From: an uncultured cyanobacterium
Lineage (GTDB): Bacteria; Cyanobacteriota; Cyanobacteriia; Cyanobacteriales; Microcystaceae
Direction: 5' to 3'
Assembly (NCBI GenBank): GCA_903869185.1
Contig: CAIPYC010000071.1
Coordinates: 1 to 33,593 of the forward strand
DNA: 33,593 nt
Under the pieces are notes generated by a model. That model was given only the letters and a program-made list of their open reading frames with translations, did not search any database and was not told where the DNA came from. The position numbers and the translations under genes were made by a program. Shown piece after piece: positions 25,489-30,081 of the stretch. Within the stretch, counting starts at the first letter, position 1, and each line of letters begins with the position of its first letter.

Positions 25489-26070
25489 TTAACTAGATGG
25501 AGAATTGATATCTTCTGGACGTTTTCCACTTCTTTGGCTACCCTCTGGTAAATCATGAGGTTCGCTAATGCCTTTGGGTAGGTAAGCAAATTCTCTCAAG
25601 GGAGTAACCATAGGATCATCAGTAACTTTATAGGGAAGTCTACCCAGGGCAACGTTATCATAATTTAGTTGATGACGATCATATGTGGATAACTCGTACT
25701 CTTCAGTCATGGAAAGACAGTTGGTAGGACAATATTCCACACAGTTACCACAGAATATACATACACCAAAATCAATACTATAGTGCTTAAGCTCTTTTTT
25801 CTTAAGTTCCTTTTTGAACTCCCAATCTACTACAGGTAAATTAATAGGACACACTCTCACGCAGACTTCGCAGGAAATACACTTGTCAAATTCAAAATGA
25901 ATCCTCCCTCTGTAACGTTCGGAAGTAATCAGTTTTTCGTAAGGATACTGAACAGTAACAGGACGACGACGCATGTGATCAAAGGTAACACCTAGACCCT
26001 CTCCGATATATTTGGCCGCCTGTATAGTTTCTTTAGTATAGCTAGTGACTTGCTTGAGGAGGTTAAACAT
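25489..26070 (-). CDS. ndhI: NDH-1 subunit I, 2[4Fe-4S] ferredoxin-type
   Basis: A 193-aa peripheral subunit that carries two [4Fe-4S] clusters in the connecting module of NDH-1 and passes electrons towards the quinone site. Both ligand sets are intact: [12 protein letters not shown] and [12 protein letters not shown], each Cx2Cx2Cx3C with the following Pro. The N terminus ([19 protein letters not shown]) is typical of NdhI. An AGGAG ribosome binding site (26083-26087 on the minus strand) sits 12 bases before the ATG. The C-terminal 35 residues are variable and Ser/Pro rich. Confidence 0.97.
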
Positions 26071-26109
26071 GAACTTAAGGCTCTCCTGAGTATGATAATT
26101 TGAGTTAAT

Positions 26110-27228
26110 TTAGCCGCCGAAAGCAAAAGGAAATGTCAATTTGAGTGCAGCTGTCAGAAGGAGATTGACCAAAGATACTGGAAGAAGAAATTTCCAACCT
26201 AAATTTAGTAATTGATCAATGCGTACCCTGGGTACAGTCCAGCGTACTAAAACCGCCAGAAATACCAAAAGGTATGTTTTCAGGATAGTCATAACAATCC
26301 CTACGGCTGCATCAACAATCTCCAAGACATCATTGTTAGGATTGATATTAAACCAGGATGCCAGATTTTCCAGAGGCAGGGGAGACTCCCACCCACCAAG
26401 ATAAAGAATAGCAAAAACCAGAGAAGATAAAACCAGGTTGACATAGGAGCCCACATAAAATAAGCCAAATTTCATGCCTGAATACTCAGTTTGGTAACCA
26501 GCGACAAGTTCTTCTTCAGCTTCGGGCAAATCAAAGGGAAGTCGTTCACATTCAGCTAGAGCTGCGATCCAGAAAATGAGAAAACCTATAGGTTGACGCC
26601 ATATATTCCAGCCCAAAATACCATAACCTGATTGCTTGTCAACTATATCAATAGTACTAAGGCTATTGGACATCATAACTATTGCCAAGACAGCAAAAGC
26701 AAGAGGCAATTCGTAGCTTATAGATTGGGCTGCAGCTCTCAATCCTCCCAGAAGAGAATACTTATTGTTAGAAGAATAGCCTGACATTAACAGTCCTATC
26801 GGAGCAATACTGGAAAGGGATATCCAAAGAAATATACCTATATTTAGATCAGTGATTACCAAATGTTCTCCAAAAGGAACAACAAGATAGGAAAGAAAGA
26901 CTGGTAAAACCACCAGCACCGGACCCAAGGTAAAAAGGATAGAATCAGCCTTTGCAGGAATGATGTCCTCTTTGAATACAAGTTTCATACCATCTGCTAC
27001 AGGCTGCAGAAATCCAAGAGGGCCTGCGTATTCAGGACCAATTCTTTGCTGGACAGCTGCTGAAACCTTTCTCTCTAGCCAAACACATACCAATACTCCC
27101 ACTGTAGCGCCCAAAATCATCAATAACATTGGCAAGGGCATCCAGAAGAGTTTAGCCACTCCTTGCGAGAATCCTAGATCTTTGAGAGATTCGATAAAGG
27201 TTCCCTGTAAATCAATTCCTGAGTCCAT
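26110..27228 (-). CDS. ndhA: NAD(P)H-quinone oxidoreductase (NDH-1) subunit 1
   Basis: A 372-aa membrane subunit (NuoH homologue) at the junction of the membrane and peripheral arms, forming part of the plastoquinone site. The family signatures are visible: [28 protein letters not shown] (shown in parts: [10 protein letters not shown] and [11 protein letters not shown]), [35 protein letters not shown] and the C-terminal [20 protein letters not shown] region ([12 protein letters not shown]). About eight hydrophobic helices can be counted. It heads the ndhA-ndhI-ndhG-ndhE-folB series; a 137-base gap to the HtrA stop upstream contains an inverted repeat and a possible -10. Confidence 0.97.
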
Positions 27229-29741: not shown

Positions 29742-30081
29742 GGGGCCGTAGCTCAGCCGGATAGAGCGAGCGCCTCCTGAAATATCGGGCACTCTGGTTG
29801 GGAAACTACAGGAGTGAATGTGGTCAAATTCAAGGAAGCCTAAGTCTATATACAGATATGGTAATCTTGAGCCAAGCTCCGAAGGTTTTCTATTTCGGAG
29901 AAGGTGCAGAGACTGGCTGTGAGAACCGAAGGATGGTTTTTGAGATGGATAATCTCTCTTGCAGCGGAGACGGCCACCACCTAAGGATTATTTTATCTAT
30001 GGTGAAGGAATAGTCCAGAGAGTGAGGAAACTCACGCAAATCTGAAGCGCTAGGCCGCCAGTTCGATTCTGGCCGGTCCCT
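29742..30081 (+). tRNA. trnR-CCU: tRNA-Arg (anticodon CCU), split by a group I intron
   Basis: The cloverleaf is complete once the intron is removed. The acceptor stem GGGGCCG (29742-29748) pairs with CGGTCCC (30074-30080), with one G-U pair. The D stem is GCTC/GAGC. The anticodon stem AGCGC (29769-29773) pairs with GCGCT in the 3' exon, and the T arm is GCCAG-TTCGATT-CTGGC. The anticodon loop reads CT-CCT-AA, which decodes AGG. The 5' exon ends at 29778 after the third anticodon base, and the 3' exon starts at 30045. CCA is not encoded. A TATGAT at 29720-29725 may be its -10 element. The discriminator base would be T, unusual for Arg. Confidence 0.93.
29779..30044 (+). ncRNA. Group I intron in tRNA-Arg(CCU)
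   Basis: A 266-base intron placed between tRNA positions 36 and 37. P1 is drawn as exon CCT plus intron G (29776-29779) with C-GGG (29786-29789), giving a T-G wobble exactly at the 5' splice site. P2 is CACTCT (29790-29795) with GGAGTG (29811-29816). A longer hairpin is CTCCGAA (29877-29883) with TTCGGAG (29894-29900). P7 pairs GACT of GTGCAGAGACT (29904-29914) with AGTC (30012-30015). P9 is GTGAG-GAAA-CTCAC (30022-30035), with a GNRA loop. The last base is G. These are the hallmarks of a self-splicing group I intron of the tRNA (IC3) class. No homing-endonuclease ORF fits inside. Confidence 0.92.

Follow-up and report, generated by a model that had tools for sequence, protein, structure and literature searches.

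A tRNA-Arg(CCU) gene divided by a group I intron

Within the 33,593 nt of cyanobacterial DNA analysed (hereafter the window) lies a tRNA-Arg(CCU) gene that is interrupted by a compact group I intron (Table 1). The only match above the gathering score (50 bits) that cmscan finds in the whole window is to the group I intron family RF00028; it lies at 29766-30037 on the + strand, scores 67.8 bits (E = 2.4e-15) and covers the full model, positions 1-253 of 253. The tRNA gene is one that is missed in annotation by ARAGORN at its default settings, which call no tRNA in the window. When an intron is allowed, the program places tRNA-Arg(cct) at exactly 29742-30081 with a 266-nt intron following the 37th base of the gene, and the joined exons form a standard 74-nt tRNA-Arg(cct) cloverleaf. 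The initial annotation had placed an ORF-less intron after U36, with splice junctions at 29778/30045, and these boundaries prove to be exact.

The 5′ exon supplies the acceptor strand GGGGCCG, the D arm, the 5′ strand of the anticodon stem (AGCGC) and the loop sequence CUCCU. The intron starts with GAAAUAUCGGG and ends in AAAUCUG, the terminal ωG being G30044. The 3′ exon continues with A37 and A38, GCGCU, the variable loop, the T arm, the acceptor strand CGGUCCC and a discriminator U73 at 30081; CCA is not encoded at its 3′ end. The intron contains a single reading frame of at least 60 amino acids, a 71-aa TTG frame that crosses the conserved ribozyme core.

The discriminator is unusual, since this position is G in 102 of 105 cyanobacterial tRNA-Arg(CCU) genes, and U73 could reflect either a genuine substitution or a mistake in the assembly. 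It might also be taken as the mark of a decaying gene whose tRNA is becoming non-functional, but the acceptor stem and the D, anticodon and T arms are all intact, the spliced exons are still called as tRNA-Arg(cct) by ARAGORN and the intron core is fully conserved, so that we consider decay most improbable.

Table 1. Features of the tRNA-Arg(CCU) gene and its intron, in window coordinates.
Feature	Position	Strand	Basis
tRNA-Arg(CCU) 5′ exon	29742..29778	+	ARAGORN, unspliced and joined sequence
P1, CCU/GA (splice site at the slash) with UCGGG	29776..29789	+	paired in 78/78 copies
Group I intron, 266 nt	29779..30044	+	RF00028, 67.8 bits; covariation over 78 copies
P2, GAAA cap 29802-29805	29790..29816	+	96.5% of cells paired; 5/7 pairs doubly changed; GGAAAC at 29801
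P3 5′ strand (3′ strand 29972-29977)	29820..29825	+	99.8% paired; 4 pairs doubly changed
P4-P5 domain; P4 = 29830-29835/29865-29870	29830..29870	+	covariation
P6/P6a	29871..29905	+	P6a: all 7 pairs doubly changed
P7 5′ strand GAGACU, bulged A29910	29909..29914	+	99.7% of cells paired, nearly invariant
Extra J7/3 hairpin ('P7.1'), GCUGUGAGA/UCUUGCAGC, 9 bp	29916..29965	+	folds of individual copies
P8; CCUAAG 29980-29985 and UAUGG 29998-30002, second 11-nt receptor motif	29979..30003	+	covariation, motif location
P7 3′ strand AGUCC, partner of 29909..29914	30012..30016	+	helix model on 78 copies
P9, GUGAG-GAAA-CUCAC	30022..30035	+	100% of cells paired; 2 pairs doubly changed
tRNA-Arg(CCU) 3′ exon	30045..30081	+	ARAGORN and sequence

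The fold of the ribozyme

Cyanobacterial copies of the intron were gathered by genome search, together with an IUPAC scan of named genomes for tRNA-Arg(CCU) genes lacking A37. From these, 78 distinct copies were aligned with MAFFT, and a helix model of 72 pairs was counted over the alignment columns. The model pairs in 91.0% of cells, compared with 84.4% for shuffled and 32-43% for slid controls, a percentage biased towards the window because the helices were drawn on its sequence. Stronger evidence for the fold comes from the double changes, of which there are 397 against 134 in the shuffled control, distributed over 37 pairs. The core helices P3 to P9, including the P3/P7 pseudoknot, are paired in 88-100% of cells, and covariation is seen in P3, P4, P5, P6a, P8 and P9. 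In P4 three successive pairs are replaced together, AAG/CUU becoming GGU/ACC in 20 copies. Almost no variation is seen in P1 and P7; they are conserved, and therefore give no covariation signal in either direction.

The elements that the initial annotation had drawn by eye, namely P1, P2, P7 and a GNRA-capped P9, are all present. P1 is formed by pairing of the internal guide GGG (29787-29789) with the anticodon CCU, and both hallmarks of a group I intron are found, the terminal ωG and the U•G wobble at the 5′ splice site; the latter (U29778•G29787) is invariant in all 78 copies. G29911-C30015 is expected to be the guanosine-binding pair of P7. GAAA loops cap P2 (L2, at 29802) and P9 (L9, at 30027). 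P5 carries CCUAAG (29839-29844) and UAUGG (29857-29861), which we take to be an 11-nt GAAA receptor, and the same motif recurs in P8. Two GAAA loops and two receptor motifs placed in this manner constitute the IC3 architecture known from the Azoarcus intron. With its small P5, GNRA loops in L2 and L9 and predicted receptors in P8 and P5, the intron, which occupies the only tRNA-Arg(CCU) gene of its cyanobacterial host, is IC3-like.

These features suggest how the tRNA would be made. The pre-tRNA would fold into the ribozyme, probably locked by docking of the two GAAA loops into the CCUAAG/UAUGG receptors, L2 and L9 with P8 and P5, and the guide GGG would form P1 with the anticodon. An external guanosine bound at P7 would attack after U29778, whereupon the freed 3′-OH of the exon would attack after G30044 and ligate the exons to give a normal tRNA-Arg(CCU). 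Self-splicing and the tertiary contacts are predicted for the window intron from its sequence. We hold with high confidence that the tRNA-Arg(CCU) gene contains a group I intron and that this intron is spliced as predicted.

The host genome and the decoding of AGG

The host genome (G000) comprises 2.76 Mb in 205 contigs and is 96.6% complete. It gives one match to RF00028, so that the window intron is the only group I intron found in it. On the minus strand of the window, the ORFs at 25489-27228 look by eye like ndhI and ndhA, subunits of complex I, which fits a cyanobacterium.

The tRNA set was taken from RF00005 and ARAGORN. An intact second tRNA-Arg(CCU), which together with unjoined exons the initial annotation would have counted against its reading, was sought in this 96.6% complete genome, and the anticodon CCU is absent among the 34 other tRNAs found; therefore the intron must be excised if this tRNA is used. 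The tRNA-Leu(UAA) is intronless.

Could splicing efficiency tune the decoding of AGG, as the initial annotation proposed? AGG is indeed among the less used arginine codons, at 54 of 461 in 24 window ORFs, with CGA and CGG rarer still. Against such regulation, an intact tRNA-Arg(UCU) is present, which by ordinary wobble rules should read AGG too and so probably does, and the gene is without the intron in most sampled genomes of the order. A regulatory role is thus unsupported, and we think it very improbable.

How widespread is the intron?

According to the initial annotation, introns of this kind are known in few cyanobacteria. The survey indicates otherwise. An intron at the same site of tRNA-Arg(CCU) is present in 34 of 58 related genomes (that of the window included), in 6 of the 16 sampled from the family and in all three genomes of the genus. 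Planktothrix is a culturable example among the relatives with the intron. For the order, a hand tally of 83 genomes, from which pattern matches lacking the P1 signature or the tRNA stem were dropped, gave 26 with an intron-type site, 53 intronless, four with neither and none with both. The matches without the P1 signature (e.g. G205, G181 and G302) were discarded as chance. No intron-type site was found outside the order in a phylum-wide sample; the scan of named genomes yielded copies outside the order in Leptolyngbyaceae (L285 and L307), and related introns at the same tRNA position in many Alphaproteobacteria and in a small number of Gammaproteobacteria. Four other loci from the genome scan (L230, L275, L280 and L286) did not look like group I introns on inspection and were set aside. 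No close DNA relatives were found on phages or plasmids. These introns are therefore no rarity, but an established and common lineage in one cyanobacterial order.

Other group I introns were encountered in the relatives. L107 (G035:C177:26534-26802) and L113 (G041:C220:2927-3180) lie apparently in tRNA-Asn(GUU), between U35 and U36; this tRNA is not known as a bacterial group I host. In L068, L071, L090, L091, L103 and L114 the 3′ flank of a group I intron reads as tRNA-fMet, with possible coding sequence upstream. The long-intron genes that ARAGORN proposed in L090 and L314, tRNA-Leu(caa) and tRNA-Ser(cga), were given no weight; the flank of L090 reads tRNA-fMet. At L072/L188 (G006:C1:4211508-4212092) two RF00028 matches share a strand, separated by some 70 bases, and seem to lie outside a tRNA.

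Origin of the intron

A tree was constructed from a 192-column core alignment of Arg and Leu introns, excluding L261 for its very long branch. The introns fall into three separate clades: cyanobacterial Arg (100/98), proteobacterial Arg (98/92) and cyanobacterial Leu (100/100). A second tree gave a similar grouping. Bootstrap values are unsettled and the branches between groups are long, and the tree is used solely against recent transfer from alpha-proteobacteria. Such a transfer is the origin that might be expected from the insertion site, after U36 of tRNA-Arg(CCU), which as the initial annotation stated is the one used in Alphaproteobacteria, and also in some Gammaproteobacteria. The window intron nevertheless lies outside the proteobacterial clade, and there are differences in the anticodon stem and in the region of P9. 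As the cyanobacterial and proteobacterial Arg introns form separate clades, there appears from the sequences to be no sign of recent alpha-proteobacterial transfer, to which we give very little credence. Of the two routes left open by the initial annotation, the lateral one is disfavoured in this form; among the cyanobacteria, descent may have been vertical or lateral.

Within the cyanobacterial clade the window intron and the copy in G002 are sisters (100/99), and that in G001, of the same genus, branches away from them in the second tree. The intron may have reached the genus by homing from an ORF-bearing cyanobacterial donor instead of by vertical descent. The G001 branching would fit this, as would the existence of ORF-bearing relatives and the patchy presence of the intron in family and order, never beside an intronless copy. 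Yet repeated loss yields the same pattern, all three genus genomes carry the intron, two of them as sisters, and a tree constrained to group the three is not rejected (p-AU 0.43). We regard homing into the genus as possible but somewhat doubtful. A Nostoc-type variant of the Arg intron (e.g. L118, L185, L215 and L282) forms a clade of its own, with P4 UCGGUG/UACCGA and without the J7/3 hairpin.

The J7/3 hairpin and the LAGLIDADG_2 reading frame

Many relatives (L192, L211, L216, L232, L243, L252, L263, L270, L284, L292, L308-L312 and L315-L344) have long introns of 830-970 nt with one ORF of about 206-265 aa; copies of the Microcoleus vaginatus type bear it. Three of the proteins were tested, and match LAGLIDADG_2 (PF03161) with E values of 1e-25 to 1e-33; the nearest relevant solved chains are I-SceI and 6x1j, the latter probably an endonuclease encoded by an intron. 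A search for the ORF in 391 genomes of the order found strong matches in about 40. Of 30 loci fetched, 25 proved to be inside a tRNA-Arg(CCU) intron, whereas five do not match the site pattern used. The ORF is located in the stretch that separates P7 from P3. Its frame begins before P7 in several copies, and its last codons overlap the P3 strand.

In all 15 long copies examined the ORF flanks are complementary, forming a hairpin of the GUUGUAG...CUACAAC type. The ORF-less copies have a corresponding element in J7/3. Here the copies were folded singly, since the MAFFT columns misalign the loop (35% of cells paired). Of the 62 copies that have a J7/3 extension but no ORF, 57 close it with a helix of 5 bp or longer, compared with 146 of 1240 shuffles. 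The hairpin is missing from three window-type and roughly 20 Nostoc-type copies. Of 54 J7/3 loops without the ORF, 27 contain a purine-rich motif resembling a ribosome-binding site (shuffled mean 4.9, maximum 11), a count inflated by the relatedness of the copies.

The window intron has no such ORF and no homologue was found in the host genome; thus it does not encode the homing endonuclease that marks a mobile intron. Because the hairpin, and with it the purine run, persists in ORF-less copies, we consider it rather likely that the J7/3 loop of the window intron once held a LAGLIDADG gene, since lost, although an ORF could instead have been gained into an existing hairpin. On the reading that the gene was lost, the window copy is probably immobile now, and we infer that its lineage was mobile in the past.

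From endonuclease to maturase?

Catalytic residues of the ORF proteins were assigned by motif alignment against I-SceI-like motifs. Most of the proteins are without one or both catalytic acids: the acid of motif 1 and the second acid of motif 2 are both kept in two of 27 distinct proteins (L328 and L339) and both lost in 15. Pairwise dN/dS is about 0.1-0.4 for most pairs, with the ORF ends also constrained by overlap with conserved RNA strands. Since both acids are lost in so many proteins while dN/dS remains well below 1, the sequences suggest a role as maturases.

The various forms might be stages of one series. A mobile intron with a LAGLIDADG_2 enzyme would have given rise to copies in which an acid-less protein is kept only as a splicing maturase, as in most of those that bear the ORF, while others, such as that of the window, lost the gene but not the hairpin; splicing of the tRNA would have passed from a mobile through a protein-dependent to an RNA-only form. 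We put this forward tentatively, as a scheme that may or may not hold. At a single site, copies with the ORF, copies whose protein is catalytically dead and copies without an ORF are found side by side, so that the gain and decay cycle of a mobile intron, as well as a possible change of role from endonuclease to maturase, can be tested directly.

Comparison with known introns

The alpha-proteobacterial tRNA-Arg(CCU) introns, of the Agrobacterium type, were compared using sequences from Rhizobiales, Rhodospirillales and Acetobacteraceae. They share with the window intron the tRNA, the site after U36, the size class and the core over 192 columns, but form a separate clade, differ in P9 and the 3′ end, and lack the J7/3 hairpin in those inspected. 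The cyanobacterial tRNA-Leu introns have the same core organization and belong to the same phylum, but are inserted after U34 and form a clade apart. The Azoarcus tRNA-Ile group IC3 intron, for which there is a crystal structure, likewise has a tRNA host, with two GAAA loops and two 11-nt receptor motifs in matching places. It resides in a different tRNA and is not known to have a J7/3 hairpin.

Descriptions of cyanobacterial tRNA-Arg(CCU) introns were not found in the literature searched, from which older intron papers are mostly absent, and which therefore does not prove them new. The 'group I intron' reported in tRNA-Arg(ACG) (PMC5733544) has 22 nt and is too short for such an element. In the group I introns of cyanobacterial LSU rRNA a peripheral loop holds a LAGLIDADG gene, and the homing endonucleases encoded are of the single-motif kind (PMC1995217). 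Those introns thus combine an rRNA host with a single-motif enzyme, whereas the window copy, itself devoid of such a gene, belongs to a family that is hosted by a tRNA and whose ORF-bearing relatives encode two-motif proteins of the LAGLIDADG_2 type (PF03161).
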